Shown in pieces: positions 2,474-61,512 of a DNA stretch of 64,000 bases. The stretch is from Mesaphorura yosii (taxonomy: Eukaryota > Arthropoda > Collembola > Poduromorpha > Tullbergiidae): positions 24,791-88,790 of the forward strand of contig WIXG01000323.1 in assembly GCA_009869945.1 (NCBI GenBank). The letters run 5' to 3'. The position numbers and the translations under genes are program-made. Position 1 is the first letter of the stretch. Each line of letters opens with the position of its first letter. Under the pieces are notes generated by a model, which saw only the letters and a program-made list of their open reading frames with translations, made no database searches and had not been told where the DNA came from.

Positions 2474-3491
2474 TTTTCCGGACGCGATTCCACAAATATC
2501 AATTAGCAAACTAGTGAATTCCACAAATAAGTCGAATTTTGGGGAGATCACAAAGGAAAACTGGCCATTCGTTCTTCAAGACTTGGTCAATGTCGCCGTA
2601 CTGAATGGTAAAACGATCTTGAAACGAAATCCACCAAAACACGTACCACAAAATAATTAACACGAAACACGACGTGAACTTGTAAACGAATGAAGATGGT
2701 CGGTCGGTCGGTCAGCCAGCGGCGGAGATTCTGCGAGCAGTGAACAATTTGTATCGTTACTCGTCTTTCGTCTCGTCTCGATTTCTCAAATACGTGAGAA
2801 ATGCGGCATGCAAAATGAAATGAAGTGAAGATGAATGAAGAATGACTTTAATGAATCATGCAATTCGTAATACTCGCAATTCGCAATTTACGAGATTTCA
2901 TTTTCGTTTGGGTCCTCTGCTCTGGGCGTCTTGGCCGTGCTTGGTAGAAAAGAAATCTGCGATGATCCGCATCCGTATATGCATTAGGGCTATTTGGTGT
3001 TCATTTCATAGAAATTATGCATTCATACGCCAGTTTACAGCTGAAAAACTCGTTTATCGTTTACGTTTTGTTTCACAAACACAACACGAAAACCGGGTCA
3101 AGTTTACGTCTGACAATTGAAATTGCTGTACTGCACTCGCAATGCTGCAGTCAGCCTAGGCAGCAGGTTGAATAATTGTGGCGTGCAGCGTGCAGGTGGT
3201 TCATCATCCTTGAATTGGAATCCTGGTTGCTTTCACTTTCAGCTTTAACTTGATTGCTTCAGATATTCGTATCAGTAAAGAGAAAATGAAAATGAAAATG
3301 ACACAAGTTCAAGTTCAGATTACAGCTTACAAGCAGAATATTAATTGCAATAAATTAAATGCTGTAACGTAACGCAATTGCAAATTGCAAATTCGTGCAG
3401 GCAATGCAGTAAGGAATTATGTTCAGCCACGGCAGTCATTGACTCCAAACAAGACAGACACACGGCGGCGGCCGGCCTCAGCCACAGCCTT
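2474..3491. other. Intergenic
   Basis: Holds the 5' flank of the secreted protein gene and the 3' flank of the GPCR gene. A short GGTC tetranucleotide run lies near 2700. I see no gene. Confidence 0.5.
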
Positions 3492-13859: not shown

Positions 13860-15273
13860 ATGGACTCCAAGTTCCACGCCCAACCCCGGGCTCCCGGCCC
13901 GCACACGGCTCATACCCTCTTCAAACTCGCCGCCGGGCTCCTACTCGCTCTTTTCTACACTGTGTAAGTGCCCCAGCCTTCTGAGCGTCGAATTTGGGTT
14001 CCAGATAAGGAATTTTGCTTCTTTGTTCACAGCACAAATTTCTACGGACTCTCCACCGCACTGAAGCTCTCCTTCGCGATCTACGCTGTCATCCCCTTCC
14101 TGATCCACTTTTCCGATTGGCTCCAGAAGAGCATAATCTTCATGCACAACGTGTGGTGGCCGCCTGCCGACCCATCAGCCTACTTTATGCCTGCGTATCA
14201 CAACGTCGAGGGAGGGCGGAACTTTTACGTGGACCCGACTACGGGACAAGAGGCTTCGCCTGGAGTCGGTGTCGGTCTGGGCGTGTGGCACATTCTTCCC
14301 GCATCTCTCGTGTCGTCGGCTCCCGACAAAGCCCAAGACCCTGACTTGGCCCAACACTTTCGCCAGGCGCTGGCCACGTCGGGAAAGCCCATCGTGATGT
14401 ACTTCCACGGAAACATGGGCTCGCGCGCCACAGGACACCGTGTGGACGTGTACAAAATGATACGTGACGAGAAGATGCTTGACTGCCACGTGATTGCGTT
14501 CGACTACTCGGGGTTCGCTGACTCCCAGCCAGTGAAACTGCCCTCGGAGAGCTCCGTCGTGGAAGATGGGCTCGCAGTTTACAAGTGGATTTGTGATACC
14601 GTCGCAACAGGCATCAGCGCACGCGCCGACGACGGTACGTCAAGACCTACGCCAAAGCCAAAGTTGTACGTGTGGGGCCATTCGCTTGGCACAAGCATCT
14701 CGACTCATTTGCTGGCCACGCTCCAGGACCCGGATTCCGTCTCATGCAAGAAACTTGGGCCGAACTTAATCCAGCCGTCGGGGCTTGTCCTGGAAGCGCC
14801 GTTTACGACGATGGCGGAGACGTTCAGGAGCTACCCGCTAAATATCGTATGTCACTAAGCTTACGCCATTCGATTCCTTTGGTGGTATCGCTGGGATTTG
14901 ACCTTTGGCTCCTTTCCTGCAGATTTACAGTTTCTGGCCGATTTTCGACTGGCTCTTTGTGCTTCCGCTGTACTCCAACGACATTGCCTTCGAAACGGAT
15001 TCGTACCTGCGAGATTTGAACCGAATCCCGGTTCTCATTTTCCATGGTGCGTCAGATGCGGTTGTGCCGTTCGAACTTGGCGAGAAACTGTACAAAAGGG
15101 TGAAGGCTGCTCGAGAAACCAGCGCAAGCGATGCGTCCGTGCCGTCAGTCGCAGCCGCAGCTCCGATCCGTTTTCAACGGCTGGATGACATTCCCTACGA
15201 ACTGGCCCACACTTTCCAGTACATGCACTCCAAATTCCCGAAGGCGGTAATGGAGTTTTTCTCGAATTGCTGA
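13860..15273 (+). CDS. ABHD12-like lysophospholipase, copy 1
   Basis: Alpha/beta-hydrolase of the ABHD12 type. In vertebrates ABHD12 is an ER membrane serine hydrolase that cleaves lysophosphatidylserine and monoacylglycerol. Three in-phase exons (13860-13963, 14033-14846, 14923-15273) give 422 aa. Two hydrophobic segments lie near the N-terminus (FKLAAGLLLALFY and LKLSFAIYAVIPFLIHF), followed by GVWHILPASL, the oxyanion block YFHGNMGSRATGHR, the nucleophile elbow WGHSLGTS, EAPFTTMAE, the acid HGASDAVVPFELG and a likely catalytic His in YELAHTFQY. The usual RHKYIYKSPELP ending is not conserved. AATAAA at 15350-15355 is a good polyadenylation signal. A second copy lies at 18187-20222. Substrate is inferred from the family. 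Confidence 0.88.
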
Positions 15274-18186: not shown

Positions 18187-20222
18187 ATGGGGTACCGAGC
18201 TCTTTTTACTGGAATCACGTTAGCGGTGGTCTCCGTCCTCATAATTTGGTACCATGAAATGTAAGTCTCTCACTCCAACTTCATATGCTTCATGGGATAG
18301 CTGGTCAGTTATCCTTTAAGCCATTTACTTTACCCAGACCAGAGACCAGACAAATAACAGGTTTTCGCTGGGTGCTTGCTCCCTCGTAATTTATTGATTT
18401 GGGACTGGGCCGTGACATCTCAGCGCTTATGCAAATAACGACTAATTAAGTTTATTGTAGTCGTAGTCTGGTCAATTCATTCATTGTTGAGCTTCCTTTC
18501 TATTTTGTAAACTAATGTTAACGACTAACGAGTTTGGGGTTGACGGCGACCGTTGATTGTCTACTCTGCTTGTTTGTTTAGTGCCTGACTACTTATCGTC
18601 TGCTGTTACTGCATGTGAACGCTTGGTGCTTGCCTCTGCCTACTTTAACCATGGCCTCCAGTGGCGGTAGTGCTACAACGACCCAGTTTGGGGAATTTGG
18701 TGCCTTGACGCGGTGCTGTTGCACCAAAACATTTGACGACGACTACGATCATTACTCTTACCACTACCACCATGCACCAACCGAATTTGGCTTCAGCTTC
18801 GATGCTGATATGGAGCTCCGGCCAGCCACGCAGGCTCACGCCAACGCCCCTGCTCAAGTTTCCGCATTGCCCCCATCGCCTGCGCGTCCTGACCGATATA
18901 CTGATCTCAGCGCAACCGCCGATCTCAGAATTCCAGTAGCTGATCCTGACATTGACATTAACGACTCTCGTTCTCGTTCACATATTCTTAGGCAAATCTA
19001 CTTTGGGGTCAAAATCGCTGTGTTCGCCACCATTTCGTTGTACCTACTCGTGCCCTTCGTGTACCACATCACGCCGAGTATACAGCGCCATATCGTCTTT
19101 CTGCCCTACGGTAAGTTCCGAATTGGCAATGGCTAAATGGCTTGACTTATCATATCAGTGAAGTGACCGTTATCACTACACGTTGTTTCCTTGCAGTGAG
19201 ATGGCCAAAGGGCGTCAATTTCTCAGATCCCGACTCAGAAGGCATCGTTGGTGGCCAGAACCTCTACCTTCATCCCGAGCCAGGCTCCCGCGTCGGTGTC
19301 TGGCATTTTCTTCCGATCTCCGAAGTGGAGGGCTCACGTGACCAGCCTCCTTCCTACTGGACTGATTCCCTCCGCAACAGTGGAAAGCACATATTCCTCT
19401 ACATGCACGGAAACTCGGGCTCCCGCGCCGGCGAGCATCGAAAGGAGCTGTACAAACTGCTGCAGAATCTTGACTTTCACGTCGTATGCTTGGACTACCG
19501 TGGCTACGCTGACTCCGCCCCCATTTCGCCCAACGAAACGACCACCGTCACGGACGGAACATTCGTATACAAGTGGGTGCGGGAAATAATCGGAAAAGGG
19601 CCGAAATCGCCACAGCTCTTCGTTTGGGGGCATTCGCTTGGAACCGGAGTCTCCAGCCATGTCGTAGCGAATTTGTGTATCGGGGGCGACCCTCCTTCGG
19701 CGTTGATTCTCGAGTCGCCATTCACAAGCATTGCAGAAGAAGTTAAATACCACATGCTGAGCGCCGTAAGTCTTCGTTTGATCTTTGACCTTCGACCTGC
19801 GATCTAATTTGTAATTTTGCCTGTCCTGAATTTGCATGCAGCTCTGGCGGTACATGCCCTTCTTCAACTGGATTTTCACGTCACCGCTCAAGCGCAACGA
19901 CATCGCCTTCGAATCGGACGTGCACATTGCCAACATTCACATTCCGATCTTTATCCTGCACGCCGTCGACGACCCCGTCGTGCCCTACTTCCTGGGCAAG
20001 AAGCTGTACAAGGCCGGGCTGAATACACGCCCGAACTCCTCAAAGCCAATGTACTTTCGGCGCTTCGGAGAGGGCCACGCTCATAAATTCATTTGTCGCT
20101 CTCCTGAGCTGCCCGAACTCATCCGGGAGTTTGTCCGCTGCACGGCCGCCGAGAAGTGGCCCTCTCAGATGCTCGAGCAGCAAACGCTGCAGTCGTTCAT
20201 CGAAATCGAACCGATTGACTGA
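18187..20222 (+). CDS. ABHD12: ABHD12-like lysophospholipase, copy 2, two possible N-termini
   Basis: Closer of the two copies to vertebrate ABHD12. Shared exons are 18992-19110, 19197-19765 and 19842-20222. Two starts fit. An upstream exon 18187-18260 (MGYRALFTG plus one hydrophobic stretch) joins 18992 in phase 2 and gives 380 aa. Alternatively an ATG at 18651 (ACCATGG) reads straight through 18651-19110 and gives 469 aa with a Cys/His/Tyr-rich head. The body has FGVKIAVFATISLYLLVPFV, GVWHFLP, YMHGNSGSRAGEHRKELY, WGHSLGTG (nucleophile), ESPFTSIAEE, HAVDDPVVPYFLG (acid) and HAHKFICRSPELPELIREF (His). A polyadenylation signal is at about 20449. It converges with the MsrB selenoprotein gene. 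Confidence 0.9.
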
Positions 20223-20488
20223 AGGCTGTTTGATAGGATGAAGGCATTTGGGTAATTCGCATGGACGCATCGATACCGGACCAGGCTGAAGGATGGACGA
20301 CTGATTTATTGCATTTTGTGACAAAATTGATCGATTTTAGTTTACTTCTCAAAATTATTGCTAAATTGCTATTGTGGGCTTCCAACACGATACGCTTGCC
20401 ACTGAATATTAATTTTACTGATAATACTTTCACTTTGATGAATAAACATATTACGCTTTGCACCAACGGTAAATCGGGGGCTCGGCCT

Positions 20489-20560
20489 CCAGCAGCAAGA
20501 GGAATCCATTCTTAGACGCTGGGTTGACCAGTTTACTCGTAGAATTTCATGCACTGCTGG
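20489..20560 (-). promoter_or_regulatory. Candidate type II SECIS element in the MSRB1 3' UTR
   Basis: Read on the minus strand, 74 nt after the stop. Helix I is CCAGCAG (20560-20554) paired with CTGCTGG (20495-20489). The non-Watson-Crick core is ATGA (20550-20547) opposite GGAT (20507-20504). Helix II starts ATTC/GAAT. A bulge with AAA lies 12 nt after ATGA. An apical mini-helix CTGG/CCAG closes a TCAAC loop. This is the layout of type II SECIS elements, which recruit SBP2 and the Sec-specific elongation factor. It was folded by hand only. Confidence 0.6.
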
Positions 20561-20633
20561 CGCCAGGCTCCAGATTTGTGCCGAATACAGAAGTGGTAAG
20601 GCTTGTACTCTTGTCATGCAGTGCAATTAAGAC

Positions 20634-21158
20634 TTAAATGTTGCAGGTACCGCCGTCTGATTTATTGCGCCCGGCCGGCGCTCGTTGCTGGACGGATTCT
20701 TTTCCATTCTTCGCCTTCGCCTGCTCTTCGTTCGACACGAACCGAAGAGCGTGCGAGAATATTCAGAACCTCGATTTTTGCTTGTCGGGCCCATCCTTCA
20801 GGAATTCGTGCCCGAGCGGGTTTCCACATTTCCCACACGAGACTTTCAGCGCCCTCGCCGAGCCCTCCTCCGCCTTTTTAGAGACCGAGTCTGGGTGAAC
20901 CGTTTCGGTGAAGGCAGGCCATGGTGAATGGTGTTCGTACTTCTGCTTGGAACTAAACAACTCGTAGCTGCATTCGGAGCAGACGTAAACTCCTGAAATC
21001 AGCAATTAATTGTCAATTGTGTGAGCGATAAACTATCGACTATCGACTATCGACGTGCTTTACTTATTGATTATCAGCTGTTTTATCAAATTACTGAAAT
21101 TACCTGGCTGGAAGTGGTCGCGATAGGTTTCTTCACTTTCCCAAGTGCAGAAAGACAT
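20634..21158 (-). CDS. MSRB1: Methionine-R-sulfoxide reductase B1, UGA-selenocysteine protein
   Basis: Repairs methionine-R-sulfoxide in proteins of the cytosol and nucleus. Two exons (21158-21104, 20992-20634) join in phase 1 and give 137 aa if the TGA at 20765-20763 is read as selenocysteine. Codon 95 is TGA within [14 protein letters not shown], at the same residue number and context as Sec95 of vertebrate MSRB1 (SRF-U-IFSSSLKFV). The family pattern continues 42 residues past it to a TAA at 20636-20634. Zinc-binding pairs are VCSEC and CGKC. Substrate-site blocks are [12 protein letters not shown] and [15 protein letters not shown]. If TGA were a stop, the catalytic residue would be lost. 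A SECIS-like hairpin lies downstream. Tail to tail with ABHD12-like copy 2. Confidence 0.88.
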
Positions 21159-21629
21159 GTTGCCACGACCTAAGCAGTGAATTTGATTGTCAATTGATCA
21201 GTGCACGAATTGGCTTGACATAAGAACTTATGTAAATAACTTTCTAAAGTAAAGTATTACGAAATACGACAGACAGCCAAAGGCAATGCATTGCAAATGC
21301 AACTGTATTTTGCATCGACAGTTTCTCTTTCCTACAGCACAGATCAAAAATGGGACAGCCGTTCACGTGTTTTGCCTTGCCTTGTTTTTGCTGTGCAAAT
21401 AGTATCATGGCGTGGCGTGGCGAATAAATTCCTAACTTCGTTGATTCAGTTGATTGTTCTTTGTTGTCTCAAGCCATTAGCTTCGAATTAGCAAATTAGT
21501 TAACAAATATTTGTCCTTTTCTTCAATTAGATGTTAATATCCTCCGGAAATCAATTACTAAATCCACGAATTCGTACTCGCCATTGACTGGCTCGTGTCC
21601 AGTTTTAATTTTCTTGCCCTGCATTCAAG
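21159..21629. other. Divergent intergenic, MSRB1 / MIF
   Basis: 471 bp between the MSRB1 ATG (-) and the MIF ATG (+). AT-rich, no coding signal; should contain both promoters. Confidence 0.4.
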
Positions 21630-22019
21630 ATGCCGATTGTTCGTATCGAAACGAGCGTCGATCCGACCCGCATCTCTCCGACGCTGGCTCCTGACCTGAT
21701 CGCTATCCTTTGCAGTAGCAAGGCGATGAGCACAGCCGGGAAGCGCGTCGAAGACTTTGCCGTTTCCATCGTTATTACGCCTAACATTTATCTTCGCTGC
21801 TCGCGGGCGCCGTGCGCCCTGGTTGACGTCACTTCAATCGGCGGGTTGGGCGTGCAAGAAAATGAGGAGCTGTCAAAGATCATGGTGGAGGTCATCTACC
21901 CGGGGCTCGGCATCGATGCAGCCGTAGATCGCAATCGCATAATCATCTGCTTCCACGACGTGGGACCACACGAGATCGGCCACGCCGAGGGCACTTTCCA
22001 TAACGTCGTGGGGAATTGA
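21630..22019 (+). CDS. MIF / D-dopachrome tautomerase family protein
   Basis: Macrophage migration inhibitory factor superfamily: small trimeric tautomerases, secreted as cytokines in animals. Single exon of 129 aa starting MPIVRIETSV, so Pro2 would become the N-terminal catalytic proline after Met removal. Family features are the fold-wide pattern VEDFAVSIVI, APCALVDVTSIGGLG (human PCALCSLHSIGKIG) and SKIMVEVIYPGLGIDAAVDRNRI. The redox CALC motif of vertebrate MIF reads CALV, so oxidoreductase activity is unlikely. A C-terminal extension of about 15 residues ends in GTFHNVVGN. No intron and no signal peptide, as usual for the latter. Drosophila lacks this family, which helps place the organism. 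Confidence 0.85.
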   Translation: MPIVRIETSVDPTRISPTLAPDLIAILCSSKAMSTAGKRVEDFAVSIVITPNIYLRCSRAPCALVDVTSIGGLGVQENEELSKIMVEVIYPGLGIDAAVDRNRIIICFHDVGPHEIGHAEGTFHNVVGN

Positions 22020-22644
22020 AAGTAAATAGCAAAGCAAGATGCAATGCAATTCTAAATGTGTAATTCCTCACATTAATCAACTGTAGTAAATTGAACCTAG
22101 TAAATTGAACCTAGTAAATTGAACCTAGTAAATTGAACCTAGTAAATTGAACCTAGTAAATTGAACCTAGTAAATTATGGAATGGCAATGCAAATGCAGT
22201 AAATGAGTAAATGACGATTGCAATTCGCAATTTCGGGTACCTACGCGTTCTTCCATACTCCAGCAGCAATTCTAGCTCGATTCTCGAGCACTCGAAGGTA
22301 GCAGCTTCTTCGCTGCTAAAAAATGAAAATGTAAATACAAATCCGCATGAGATGCGGTTCACCCTGACTGGAAACGAGTTGAGCCGCTTTCTGCTTGAAA
22401 GTTTGACCTTGTTTTACACGAGTTTCACGAGGAAGGACAAGCACGGCAAGGAGTTATGGAACGGCACACTGTCTTGCTGGAAACTGGTTTCGCTGTTTTG
22501 CAGAACAATCGTCACTGTCTACAATTATTCATGTCATGTGAGTAGCGAGATGCATGAGTTTGAGCTTAGTCTAGTTGTATTGCTTAGTTAAGTATTTATA
22601 GTTGAACGAGAACAATCGCTGAAGAATTCCCTGAAATCATTGAA
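22020..22644. other. Intergenic with minisatellite and an unconvincing ORF
   Basis: Holds a 14-bp tandem repeat (own entry) and a 126-codon ORF at 22211-22591 (ATG start, no family or domain). I would not call it a gene without transcript support. Confidence 0.4.
22085..22177. repeat. 14-bp minisatellite, about 6.6 copies
   Basis: The unit AGTAAATTGAACCT is repeated head to tail with no visible mismatch and ends in a partial copy before ATGG. Perfect identity suggests recent expansion. Confidence 0.93.
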
Positions 22645-44802: not shown

Positions 44803-46074
44803 TCATTTGAACGCAATCATCACTTTTCCAGTTGCATACACGAGAAATGCGACATATGTGAGTTTGGCTTTCTTCTCCAGCCCGTACAACCCGCAGACAG
44901 TGAATTTGAGGGGCGCGAGAGACCGAAGAATTTGGCGTGCGTATGCATATTCTCTTCCATGGCGGCGGTGGTGGTGCTCAGTCCCAGTCTCAGTCAGCTG
45001 GCGTTTGAGGCCGGAAATGTACTTGGATGAAATCGTCCAGAGTCCCGACATCACACTTACGGCAACCGTCAAGACGACGTACAGATTGACAGCGAGCAGC
45101 AAGAAGACGAGGGACGCCAGCGACACCGCCACGGCCCACTCGCTTCTGCCGCTGCTGCTGCTGCTGTGGTCACCGTGCCGTATTTCAACAAAAACCATGA
45201 GAAGCAGCATTGTATTCGAGCTCGCGGCGCACTTCATTACCGGAACCACGAGTCCAGAGAATGACCCGTAATTAAATCGATTGCAGAAGATGGAAAGCAT
45301 TCTATAATTCACACAGCATTGATCCAAATCCAAGTCCAAGCTTGGCGTAGGCTTGGGCGTGGGCGGCACGGAAGCACGAAGGACAGACTGCACGATGTGA
45401 TGGTACAAGTAAATGTAAGTCCCGATGAGGAGGAAAGCCGTGATTCCGCGCGAGGCGACGATAAAAACGACCACCGCGATGGCAGCCGACGCTTCGGGGC
45501 TCCCGGTGACTTGGTACAAGTAGTGGCCTTCGACGAAAGCCGAGATGAAGGCGGATCCAAACATCGACGTGACAAACACGTAGTAAAAGTATTTGATGGG
45601 ATTCTGCGCTTTGGGAGTCCGAATCCTCTTCCCTTCCGACTGCGACGTCGACGTAGCCGACGTGAGGAGCTGGTTGAAGAGCGCCAGGAGTTCGTGTCCC
45701 GGCCAGGCGAAGGCGAAACCAAAATTAACGATTGCAAAATACGCCGTGGAAAGCATGAGATAAACAATCGAGACGGCGTTCGTGAATTCGGCTTTGATCC
45801 CGTGCCCGCCGCTGTCGCAGTCGGAGTGTACACGCCGCAATCTCCAAATGCTCTGCGCAAAAATGAGGCAATCCATGAAATTGCAGTAATACACGAGGAC
45901 CGTCTTCCACGCCCAAGCACTCGGTTTTCGTTCCACCCGACACTTTTCGCCATTCCAGACGGCGCCTGCAGCGAGAAACGTGCAGGACGCCGCGCGCACG
46001 TTCACGGCGACGAGGTTCAGAGCTGTCCGCGTCAGCATCGCTCCGATTGCTGTACTGTTTAATGTACACTCCAT
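44803..46074 (-). CDS. Divergent 7-TM gustatory-receptor-like protein 2
   Basis: Single exon of 423 aa; ATG at 46074 (MECTLNSTAIGAML). Hydrophobic helices include AVSIVYLMLSTAYFAIVNFG, YYVFVTSMFGSAFISAFVEG, AIAVVVFIVASRGITAFLLI and AVSLASLVFLLLAVNLYVVL. There is no signal peptide. The last loop and helix read RQILRSLAPLKFTVCGLYGL and end VYATGKVMIAF, homologous to the C-termini of the receptors at 24611 and 50677. A fragment of a close relative (LKFNVGGLYCMKK) lies at about 49.95 kb. Probable chemoreceptor ion channel of the Gr superfamily; ligand unknown. The lack of introns differs from receptor 1. Confidence 0.7.
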   Translation of the reverse strand: MECTLNSTAIGAMLTRTALNLVAVNVRAASCTFLAAGAVWNGEKCRVERKPSAWAWKTVLVYYCNFMDCLIFAQSIWRLRRVHSDCDSGGHGIKAEFTNAVSIVYLMLSTAYFAIVNFGFAFAWPGHELLALFNQLLTSATSTSQSEGKRIRTPKAQNPIKYFYYVFVTSMFGSAFISAFVEGHYLYQVTGSPEASAAIAVVVFIVASRGITAFLLIGTYIYLYHHIVQSVLRASVPPTPKPTPSLDLDLDQCCVNYRMLSIFCNRFNYGSFSGLVVPVMKCAASSNTMLLLMVFVEIRHGDHSSSSSGRSEWAVAVSLASLVFLLLAVNLYVVLTVAVSVMSGLWTISSKYISGLKRQLTETGTEHHHRRHGREYAYARQILRSLAPLKFTVCGLYGLEKKAKLTYVAFLVYATGKVMIAFK

Positions 46075-46521
46075 AAAGCACAACTGGAATGGACTGCCTG
46101 TAGTTTCGATCTAAAAGCGCACTAAAAATAGTGCGCATTAAGCAAGGCCTGATGCAATCAGATTAATCGATGATTAGGAGTTTAAATTTAAATGAAGTGT
46201 CTTTGTTTGCACGGAGCGGCAGGGCAAACAAACCAAACAAAGACAAAGGATGGACGACTTCTAATTAGAGCCGGCTCGGGTTCGAAGAGCCCGATTGTAC
46301 TCAAAACTGGCAGAATCCTTCGTTTATTTATTCACCTATGAAATTTGCAGTAGTTTCAAGCTTGATTAAATTGTACTAGTACAATTAAGGTGGTAGAAAC
46401 ACCTGGGGCCGATTCTTCTTAATTCACCATTTTATTATAAGCATGACAGATAACCATTTCTTAAATTTTAAGTATTTCGGATTTAGAAAAGCAGTTACAA
46501 TTACAATTCAATGTCTACGGT
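46075..46521. other. Intergenic
   Basis: Between receptor 2 and the PSMA1 3' end. An ORF that overlaps the receptor start in another frame is a shadow. No gene. Confidence 0.45.
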
Positions 46522-50676: not shown

Positions 50677-51981
50677 TTAATGAAATTGCTTGAAAGGAAA
50701 TGTACAGAGTAGGAGAATGGTCTTATCAACTAATGTGTGCCAGAACCCAAGCACTGCCACTTCGTCGCAGTTGTAGGACGAATTCAGATGAATTTTCATA
50801 GGACGCAACGTTTCAAATTGCATCCTGATGAATTCGAAGTCATGACCGCCGCTTCTCTCCCGATGCATGACTAGTCGTTCAGATTTCCAGGCACTGAGCA
50901 CACGTTTTGAGTTGAGCCATATCTTTCCAAACATTTGCAGCACGAACGAGGCGAAGATGGTGCAGATAACTACGATGTATATTGAGACGAAACGCTCTCG
51001 TATTGTGCCACTTGAGGCAAGTCCGAAGGCTGCCGATACGCAGGAGAAGAATACACAGAGAATGAGACCTCCAGACATGACATGGCCACCCCAATTCATG
51101 AACAGTTCAATGGCCATGAACAACTCCTGATACATCCTGAAGAGAGTCTTTGTGTGACTCAGACCTTGAAGGGATCGGCTCCTTAATTTGGTAATGTAAT
51201 CAGTGGTAGCCCATATCCCAGCAGTAAATACGATTACGATCATATTCCACCTTGCAAAAACGCCAAACGACACATAAAGATAGAGAATATAGGCGAGGAT
51301 TGTGCCCAGTACTATGATGACTACTGGGAACTTGAAACCAAAAAGGAGCTCCACAGGCCGGATGAATTCGTAGGTCACACGTATGCAAATGTCAGGACGA
51401 ATGCCCACTAACAGACCGAAAATCATTGGACACGCGAATGAAAATGACAGGTGGATGATTTTCAAGATTTTCCGCAGTACGACTCGTGTCTCCTCCTCTT
51501 CCGACTTTTCAACCGGTGTCCAGTATTTCCCAAATGTTCCTGAACGTAGAGCAGCAAATGATTCAGGAATGAGATCTAGTAAATGGCAATGACGAAACTT
51601 ACCGTCGATTTGTTTGAATAGGCGGAGCACCGAGTTTACGCAGCGGATGGGTTCCATGGCACAGTTTCCCCAACCGTAGAGGTAGTCTACGTACATTGTT
51701 AATCCGTGCATACAAACTACTTTGATCCCAAACAATAATGCGATGACTGGAATAACTCCTCCTACAGTCAAGTACCAACTAATGTACGTAACGAAGATTA
51801 GACATGGCTGCGCCATAAAGCTGAGAGCTATGTTTGCGTAGTAATGCCACCGAAAGTACCAAATGCGGATCCGTTGCACGCGTCTAGTCTTCATATTTAC
51901 TCTGAACGGGCAAACGCCAAAAAGGAGAGCTACCTTCATTGCGCGACGAACAATACCAAAAGTCTTTTCATCCAGAATCAT
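50677..51981 (-). CDS. Divergent 7-TM gustatory-receptor-like protein 3
   Basis: Single exon of 434 aa; ATG at 51981. Helices include YANIALSFMAQPCLIFVTYI, VGGVIPVIALLFGIKVVCMH, LSFSFACPMIFGLLVGIRPD, FPVVIIVLGTILAYILYLYV and SGGLILCVFFSCVSAAFGLA. A Cys/Trp-containing first loop (YGWGNCAMEPIRCVN) follows TM2. The C-terminus, RMQFETLRPMKIHLNSSYN and GFWHTLVDKTILLLC, aligns with receptors 1 and 2. It sits between two decayed relatives on the same strand, as expected of a birth-and-death tandem array. Probable chemoreceptor channel; ligand unknown. Confidence 0.72.
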   Translation of the reverse strand: MILDEKTFGIVRRAMKVALLFGVCPFRVNMKTRRVQRIRIWYFRWHYYANIALSFMAQPCLIFVTYISWYLTVGGVIPVIALLFGIKVVCMHGLTMYVDYLYGWGNCAMEPIRCVNSVLRLFKQIDGKFRHCHLLDLIPESFAALRSGTFGKYWTPVEKSEEEETRVVLRKILKIIHLSFSFACPMIFGLLVGIRPDICIRVTYEFIRPVELLFGFKFPVVIIVLGTILAYILYLYVSFGVFARWNMIVIVFTAGIWATTDYITKLRSRSLQGLSHTKTLFRMYQELFMAIELFMNWGGHVMSGGLILCVFFSCVSAAFGLASSGTIRERFVSIYIVVICTIFASFVLQMFGKIWLNSKRVLSAWKSERLVMHRERSGGHDFEFIRMQFETLRPMKIHLNSSYNCDEVAVLGFWHTLVDKTILLLCTFPFKQFH

Positions 51982-52405
51982 GTTTGAACCTCTTTTGGAG
52001 TGCGAAATGACGTATTGCTCAGAAATGTGAGTTGTTCCTTACTCGGTATTTCTAAATCAAATGCTTCCAAAGAAATTCGACCCGTGACAAACCACCTGAA
52101 ACCGGATCTCGTACAATCGAGATTTCAGGAAAGCGGAACATTTTTTAGAGAGATGAGCATACGCCAGTAAAATATGCATAAATACACGTGAAAGGCAGGG
52201 CAAGAAATTAATCCAGAGAAAAGCCGGGGCGTTTTCAGAGGTTTATTCCAGAAGAAGCTATCGATTGGTTTCAGGAAGATTGAACATAAAACCAGCGCCC
52301 GAAAATGGAAAAAACTTAAGGCTTGCTTACTTTAGAACTTCGTTCATCTTTAACGCACTATCACAAATGCATACGCTACACAATTTCGAGACGAGTTGTT
52401 CCTGA
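51982..52405. other. Intergenic upstream of receptor 3
   Basis: AT-rich 5' flank of the receptor gene. The 52.32-52.41 kb part is probably the decayed tail of the next fragment. Confidence 0.4.
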
Positions 52406-59303: not shown

Positions 59304-60844
59304 TTAAACAATTTCTTTGAGGAACCTTCCATGCACGACGACATGATGCAAGTCATGCGAATGGAGCCTTGCATTGACCCACGGAATAAAGCTGGCCACG
59401 TGTAGCCTTAACAATGCGGGGTTCGCTTGCTTCGTCGTTTCCTGGAGAATGTACTTAAGATGCCTGGCCGACTTGTAGACTTCGTCGGTCTGGATGAGGA
59501 GTGCGGGCGGATCGCGGTCTCTGTCCAGGAGGTAGTCGTTCATGAGCATCTGCGCGTACCGACACTCGTCATTCGTCTTGATGGCCGCCCACACGATGTA
59601 GCCGACGAGGCCCAGGTAAAGGCCAAACACAAACAGAGTCGCGACGATGTTTCGGACGACGACGGGTGATTGCTCTTCGAAAACGTCCATGTAGCCGATC
59701 AGCGCTGCAAAATAAAATATGGCTGAGTAAGCTTAATCAATCACGAGCCTACGAGCCAGGTGAAAAGAAACTATAGAAACTGTCGATGCCACGACTTACT
59801 TGTGAGAGACACAAGCCCCGAAAGGTAAAGAATGATAAAGAGGATGTTCACTCCGATGGTGTACGCGTACGCTGGGAATGCCCAACTCATGTACAGTCCA
59901 AACACGTCGTTGACGTACACGGCTTGCCTCGTGATACGTTTGTACAGTAATTTAAGGTTGGCGAGCCGTTCCAGGGTTGGGCGTTCGTTTTCGACGACGA
60001 GGTCGCGGAGATGTGCGTTGAGCAGCTGAAACTGCGACCGGAGGCCTGTGACGAATGCGTAGTAAAATGGGAGTGTAAAACTGTAGAGGACATCCACCCA
60101 GTGATCTAGTTCGTCGCTGACGACGAAACTGCCCGTAAAGATCGGGATGATGTGCGTGCACAGCACGGCGAGATACATGCCGATCAGCGTCGTGCCGATC
60201 CCCTCCGCCCGCTCCAGCTGCTCCTTCTTCGTCTTCTCGGGCACGCACTGCAGGTATTCGTCGCGGAATTTGTCGTACGACGTGATCAGATTCCGCAGCG
60301 TATGACCGTAGCCCCAGACGATTGCTAGCGGGAGCACGGCAGGGAGCGTCCTGGATGCGATTGTAAAGTTGAAGATGACATCCCAGTTCAATTTGCCCTC
60401 AACGAGGAGTATGTAAAAAATCTCCCAGACAATCTTGCCGGTGACGCCGAGCACCAGGAGCGAGTAGCAAAAAAGGGGCACAGTCAGGAGGAGGCTGAAA
60501 ATGTTTTTTGGGAGCAGGATGCCCCACAGCCAGTCCGACCAGGTACGCTTGGGCTCACCGGGCTCCCCGAGGAGGAGGTGGACGGGGAAGCCGAGGAAGA
60601 GGAAGGGGTAGGCCACGCTGGCGATGTTCTGGTGCCAGACACGCTGCAGGGCTTCGTCAGTGGTGAGCTCCTTTGGCTTGATGCCCGACTCATCGCCATC
60701 ACCTTGACCAGGCTCCGGTGCGCCGGCGTCGCCTTCACAGTCTTTTTCCTTCTCGGACGCTGAAAGTACTGGTAATTTGAGTGTTTTCCTCTTTGGAACA
60801 CAGGGCACAAGCTCCAGAATCTTCAGTACGCTGAACGCAGTCAT
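59304..60844 (-). CDS. Divergent 7-TM receptor-like protein 4
   Basis: Two exons (60844-59800, 59704-59304) join in phase 1 and give 481 aa. A long soluble N-terminus (about 65 aa, acidic) precedes helices such as NIFSLLLTVPLFCYSLLVLG, LPAVLPLAIVWGYGHTLRNL, GIGTTLIGMYLAVLCTHIIP, YAYTIGVNILFIILYLSGLV and FVFGLYLGLVGYIVWAAI. The layout, cytosolic loop (RLANLKLLYKRITRQAVYVN) and long final segment are typical of arthropod Gr/Or-superfamily channels. Its C-terminus (ARLHSHDLHHVVVHGRFLKEIV) does not share the motif of receptors 1-3, so it belongs to a different subfamily or is something else. Identity as a chemoreceptor is inference. Confidence 0.62.
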
Positions 60845-61512
60845 TTCGAGGAGTCTGGCGTACGCGAGCTTGCTGATACATTTTTAAAATTCAAATGAGT
60901 GCCAGAGCAGAGAAAAGCTCTACTATAAGCCATACGATAGCGAGAGGACATGAATTATCAATTACTGATAAATTAGTGTATTAAAATATCAAGGGTAAAA
61001 AGGCTCAGTGAAACGCGAAACGCGCACTTGACACACGCAGCGGCAGAGCATATCACAAATGGCTTTTGTTATGCATGCAGACGACTGCGTCTGTGACACT
61101 GCGTTCGCATCTCGTGTGCACACAACACGATTATCATTTTACGAATGGACTCTGACGCAATCAGCGACCCGAACATACTCAACACTTTGTGATAAACAAC
61201 CTTTGACGCCCGTTCACGACGCCGGTTCAAATGATAAACGAAATTCCCTGCAGCCCTGCACTGCTGCACGGCGAGCAGATGCTCTTGACAATGGCTTTGA
61301 CTTTGACAATGAAATCAAACGAGAGAGCAACAGCAAGCATGAAATGAAAGGTACCTCACATCCGCCGACTCGCCGAATCGTCGACACGATACGACACGAT
61401 ACTTCAATTATGCCGTTTGCGTTTATTGCAAATCACAAATCGCAAATTACGCATCCCTTCATTCCACAGAGTTTGTTTTTATGTATGAATGAGCTCAGAA
61501 ACTCAGAATGAA
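60845..61512. other. Intergenic
   Basis: 5' flank of receptor 4 and 3' flank of the Thr-rich gene. A 150-codon plus-strand ORF (61059-61511) has an ATG but no domain, low hydrophobic order and no splice partners, so I left it out. Confidence 0.4.

Follow-up and report, generated by a model that had tools for sequence, protein, structure and literature searches.

A putative selenoprotein MSRB1 gene with UGA at codon 95 in a genome predicted to decode selenocysteine

We analyzed a window of 64 kb (the whole stretch of DNA under study) and conclude that its MSRB1 (SelR) locus is, with high probability, this animal's ordinary selenoprotein gene, in which UGA at codon 95 would be read as selenocysteine (Sec). 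Because our analysis is based on sequence alone, we infer the recoding itself, along with transcription of MSRB1, Sec insertion and catalysis by the product. Encoded on the minus strand, the gene consists of two exons that, when spliced, yield a 137-residue reading frame with an internal TGA and both CxxC motifs (Table 1). A first-pass annotation of this DNA had placed a TGA at codon 95 of an MSRB1 gene, with no strand stated; the spliced translation and a gap-free alignment to the solved MSRB1 chain 2kv1 bear out that placement.

Table 1. Features of the MSRB1 locus (positions in the window) and related loci elsewhere in the genome (by contig).
Feature	Position or contig	Strand	Basis or detail
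MSRB1 exon 1	21158-21103	minus	19 protein letters, including Cys4; spliced translation and ungapped alignment to 2kv1
Intron	21102-20992	minus	111 nt, GT..AG ends; spliced translation
MSRB1 exon 2	20991-20634	minus	Most of SelR domain, UGA codon, TAA stop; Pfam, phmmer, spliced translation
TGA codon 95, proposed Sec codon	20765-20763	minus	Context SRF-U-IFS; spliced translation
SECIS-like element, type II, 3'UTR	20560-20489	minus	Rfam SECIS_1, grammar score, fold
SECIS helix I	within 20560-20489	minus	CCAGCAG/CTGCTGG
SECIS core	20550-20547 / 20507-20504	minus	ATGA / GGAT
SECIS AAA	20534-20532	minus	
SECIS helix III	20531-20528 / 20522-20519	minus	CTGG/CCAG
AATAAA, possible poly(A) signal 3' of SECIS	20310-20305	minus	
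SPS2, UGA form	C589		SECIS-like, 44 by grammar; family support from SelD exons
SelS, UGA form			GGUG end; SECIS 35.0 bits (Rfam)
SelT, UGA form	C196		Family support from Rdx in neighboring exon, 29.5 bits
GPx, UGA form	C426		SECIS 21.8 bits; GSHPx 33.1 bits
GPx, UGA form	C141		SECIS 35.2 bits; GSHPx 25.6 bits (cut-off 27)
MsrA, UGA form	C66 (L050)	minus	GMSUFWFPEA catalytic site; PMSR 40.2 bits; SECIS-like downstream, 35.8 by grammar
GPx, Cys form	C262, C1052		2 of 4 GPx loci
SelT, Cys form	C264		1 of 2 Rdx loci
MsrB, Cys form			Both further MsrB loci found in genome
MsrA, Cys form	C130		5 MsrA contigs found (C66, C75, C103, C104, C130); active site read in C66 and C130

The predicted product, queried with a cysteine typed at the TGA residue, matched the Pfam SelR family (PF01641) at 81.9 bits, compared to a cut-off of 24.9. 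Its best phmmer match was 2kv1, with residues 1-115 aligning to residues 1-115 of that chain (167 bits, E 2e-48), while MSRB3 scored 62.6 bits and MSRB2 scored 43.4 bits. Judged by these alignments, the locus is nearest to MSRB1, not to MSRB2 or MSRB3. Vertebrate MSRB1 (also called SelR or SelX) carries Sec95 and a 3'UTR SECIS element. The predicted protein resembles the vertebrate enzyme over this gap-free region, at position 95, at Cys4 and in both CxxC motifs, and it differs in length (137 residues versus 124 in 2kv1, a chain that may be tagged), the extra residues forming a C-terminal tail.

The principal alternative is that the UGA is a plain stop, making the locus either a pseudogene or the gene for a truncated, 94-residue protein without the catalytic residue. 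A TGA is literally present, the two other MsrB loci are Cys forms that could cover part of the function, and the SECIS-like element described below falls under the Rfam cut-off. However, homology continues beyond the TGA, which aligns with residue 95 of the solved MSRB1. The 14 residues directly after the TGA score 30 against the stretch that follows position 95 of 2kv1, and this score was reached by only 1 of 127,912 six-frame 14-mers of the window (14-mers with a stop were passed over), that one being the 14-mer directly after the TGA. Codon composition is also similar on either side, with GC at codon positions 1-3 of 0.50, 0.45 and 0.66 before the TGA and 0.57, 0.45 and 0.64 after it. By these sequence measures, the frame that follows the TGA is coding, and the earlier claim of conserved coding on both sides holds. 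The splice sites are also intact, a SECIS-like element lies downstream and Sec machinery is present in the genome, all of which argue against a plain stop, an explanation that we regard as highly improbable.

The SECIS-like element lies ~213 nt downstream of the UGA. Read by hand, its ATGA and AAA motifs are separated by 12 nt and GGAT is found on the 3' side, a spacing equal to that of the Rfam consensus. The Rfam SECIS_1 model matched positions 20558-20491 of the minus strand from end to end at 21.1 bits, short of the gathering score of 35 (E 0.037, for an input of 121 bases, 20470-20590, against 4227 Rfam families). Rfam listed this match only with the 121-base input, and the tool's filters are described as laxer on short input; no SECIS was found in the whole window at the gathering threshold, in a permissive scan of 19000-21500 or in a scan of locus L001. 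A genome-wide Rfam SECIS search listed two places, MSRB1 not among them, but this silence means little because the same search omitted the SECIS of the GPx gene on contig C141, which scores 35.2 bits.

We also scored SECIS elements with a grammar of our own, which replaced a first, loose scan that gave four sites in 3 kb and was judged unspecific. The MSRB1 element scored 39.0 and ranked first among the nine sites that reached 22 or more when both strands of the window were scanned (next site: 33.1). One 64-kb strand, dinucleotide-shuffled 100 times (6.4 Mb), gave no sites of at least 39, two of at least 36 and 11 of at least 33, a result that serves as a guide and not as a clean test because the grammar postdates our sight of the candidate, having been devised when it and the Rfam alignments for the elements of SelS and of the C141 GPx gene were already in view. 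When applied to other genes, the grammar gave scores of 46 for SelS, 48.8 and 39.4 for the two GPx genes (all three listed by Rfam) and 44 for SPS2 (not listed by Rfam). Among the loci covered by this round of scoring, sites of at least 33 were those of SelS, both GPx genes, SPS2 and MSRB1, plus one on contig C211 (35.8). This last site (C211:103202-103264, L018) scores 22.8 bits in Rfam, and no recognized selenoprotein was found upstream of it.

Helix II of the MSRB1 element contains 7 standard pairs of 10. The minimum-energy fold includes helices I, II and III, yet pairs the core GAA with UUC, and the centroid fold keeps helices I and III only, dropping helix II. The folding energy does not stand out (z -1.12; 28 of 200 shuffles fold equally well). 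An alignment of five SECIS elements looked poor in the 3' half. We consider that the modeled fold gives modest backing to the element. Overall, the SECIS search that the first-pass annotation had called for was positive for a 3'UTR element, although not strongly so by Rfam alone (21.1 versus 35 bits).

Components of the Sec machinery were sought in the genome (93,006,257 bases in 1127 contigs). There were four matches to tRNA-Sec, one of which is over the cut-off (74.6 bits) with a TCA anticodon; the other three were rejected as tRNA-Ser. The same tRNA-Sec search of 14 control genomes gave matches in all 14, with five having matches over the cut-off. A match to eEFSec was found on contig C108 (45.5 bits; cut-off 27) and in 0 of the 14 controls, while SepSecS was represented by five matches over the cut-off on C190. 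One SPS locus was found (C589), with three SelD exons (best 103 bits, each below the whole-protein cut-off of 125) and the peptide ELKGUGCKVPQ, in which U is encoded by UGA, just upstream of them. An SBP2-like exon on C312 was recovered with a hand-typed query sequence (E 3.5e-7), and its best solved relative is SECISBP2 (E 9.1e-7; next 0.37). The PF01248 family, tried as a route to SBP2, gave seven matches on five contigs, which by eye are RPS12, Snu13, NHP2, RPL30 and RPL7A, with no SBP2 among them. A PSTK-like gene on C5 scores 129.2 bits for PSTK (cut-off 382) versus 67.8 bits for KTI12. From these predicted genes, we conclude that the genome decodes Sec. The first-pass annotation had proposed a check for Sec machinery and named its absence as evidence against Sec: tRNA-Sec(UCA), eEFSec and an SPS2 with UGA were found, plus the SBP2-like exon, and these together with the SepSecS and PSTK-like matches rule out such an absence.

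Given a SECIS-like element and this machinery, we weighed two further explanations for the UGA. One is readthrough with an amino acid other than Sec, as proposed for the hymenopteran SPS1-UGA gene. This proposal provides a published precedent (PMC4561486), but that case concerns a gene lacking a SECIS in selenoproteinless genomes, whereas a SECIS-like element and Sec machinery are both found here, and we assign such readthrough an extremely small probability. The other is an assembly error, in which one wrong base would be enough to turn a TGC or TGT codon, both of which encode Cys, into TGA; as a SECIS-like element would be unexpected in the 3'UTR of a Cys gene, save as a relic, we consider this hardly credible.

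UGA is also found at the usual Sec site of six further genes: SPS2, SelS, SelT, two GPx genes and MsrA (Table 1). SECIS-like elements were identified for five of the six, SelT being the exception: the strict grammar found none that was convincing at this locus and relaxed settings gave one weak site (32.1). The score of the MsrA element (35.8) is matched by the best shuffles (36.1), and the Rfam scan that listed the two GPx elements gave no SECIS for SPS2 or SelT. In Pfam searches, neither four SelS exons nor the UGA-bearing exons of SelT and SPS2 returned a family, weak matches below the cut-off apart. SelS was named by eye from a GGUG end, which we take to be that of SelS, plus its SECIS.

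Two features of the GPx loci were also observed. The C141 gene (L039) has two similar SECIS-like elements, at 2823-2889 and 2974-3042 (35.2 and 26.3 bits), apparently in one 3'UTR ahead of an AATAAA. Two SECIS elements in a single gene are known mainly from selenoprotein P. On C426 (L038), positions 44-238 form a long hairpin (inverted repeat) that gave Rfam microRNA matches below their cut-offs and is perhaps a small transposon.

If MSRB1 is a selenoprotein gene, as we propose, the ribosome would read UGA codon 95 as selenocysteine, with the 3'UTR SECIS recruiting an SBP2-like protein, eEFSec and Sec-tRNA(UCA). This would yield a zinc-binding methionine-R-sulfoxide reductase in which Sec95 carries out catalysis and Cys4 probably serves as the resolving residue, roles that we assume from the vertebrate enzyme. 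We also considered a more elaborate and, in our estimation, rather unlikely model: that MsrA and MSRB1, and with them both branches of methionine-sulfoxide repair, have kept Sec, and that the weakly paired helix II of the MSRB1 SECIS (7 of 10 pairs) lowers the efficiency of Sec insertion, such that MSRB1 output would track the supply of selenium while the Cys-type MsrB genes act as a back-up.

Several features bear on the lineage of this animal. The window encodes a 7tm_7 chemosensory receptor at 59774-60883 (34.4 bits, Pfam), a family typical of arthropods. Two long open reading frames, at 44803-46107 and 50680-52038, resemble this receptor by eye, with no Pfam match. SPS1 is reported in all insect genomes (PMC4561486), whereas the only SPS locus found here is the UGA form. 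MsrA, reported as a Cys protein in insects and vertebrates, has Sec in a centipede, Daphnia, Ixodes and the chordate Branchiostoma floridae (PMC4244043). The single SPS locus and the MsrA with Sec suggest an invertebrate outside the insects, and the receptor makes the arthropod origin inferred in the first-pass annotation plausible, although these indirect hints fall short of proof. Because these two features point away from insects, the selenoprotein losses of insect orders, which the first-pass annotation had offered as a comparison, are probably inapplicable.

Relatives of this gene have been described in ticks and insects. SelX of the tick Amblyomma maculatum (JO845128) is classed as a selenogene in PMC3840058; the SelX primers given there, when translated by eye, read HSPWPSF and KVYCGKC, compared to HSPWPAF and KVSCGKC here, a fit judged over these primer stretches. 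The authors of that work also state that Sec coding was not lost in a tick methionine sulfoxide reductase. Among insects, MSRB1 is listed with the selenoproteins of other Paraneoptera but is a Cys form in phylloxera (PMC7376646). Elsewhere among arthropods, a centipede with 20 selenoproteins has been published (PMC4244043), and the Sec trait is described as lost in two astigmatan mites (PMC5330540).

Selenoprotein MSRB1 in arthropods is already published, and the present gene is of a well-known kind. As rich non-insect arthropod selenoproteomes have been published as well, our analysis settles no open question. Its contribution is one compact invertebrate genome in which the Sec trait is retained, with UGA at the usual Sec position of MsrA, MSRB1, SPS2, SelS, SelT and two GPx genes, and it provides a clean annotation example, since a standard gene finder would end MSRB1 at F94.

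The surroundings of MSRB1 contain other predicted genes and a repeat. Two neighboring alpha/beta hydrolase genes (13968-14858 and 18582-20221; ABHD12-like by eye) share 40% identity over 141 aligned positions, and the second of these is arranged tail to tail with MSRB1. On the plus strand, a MIF-family gene at 21630-22016 (49.2 bits) is divergent from MSRB1, with the two start codons ~470 bp apart. A 14-bp minisatellite (TAGTAAATTGAACC) with 6.6 copies and 100% matches occupies positions 22084-22176.
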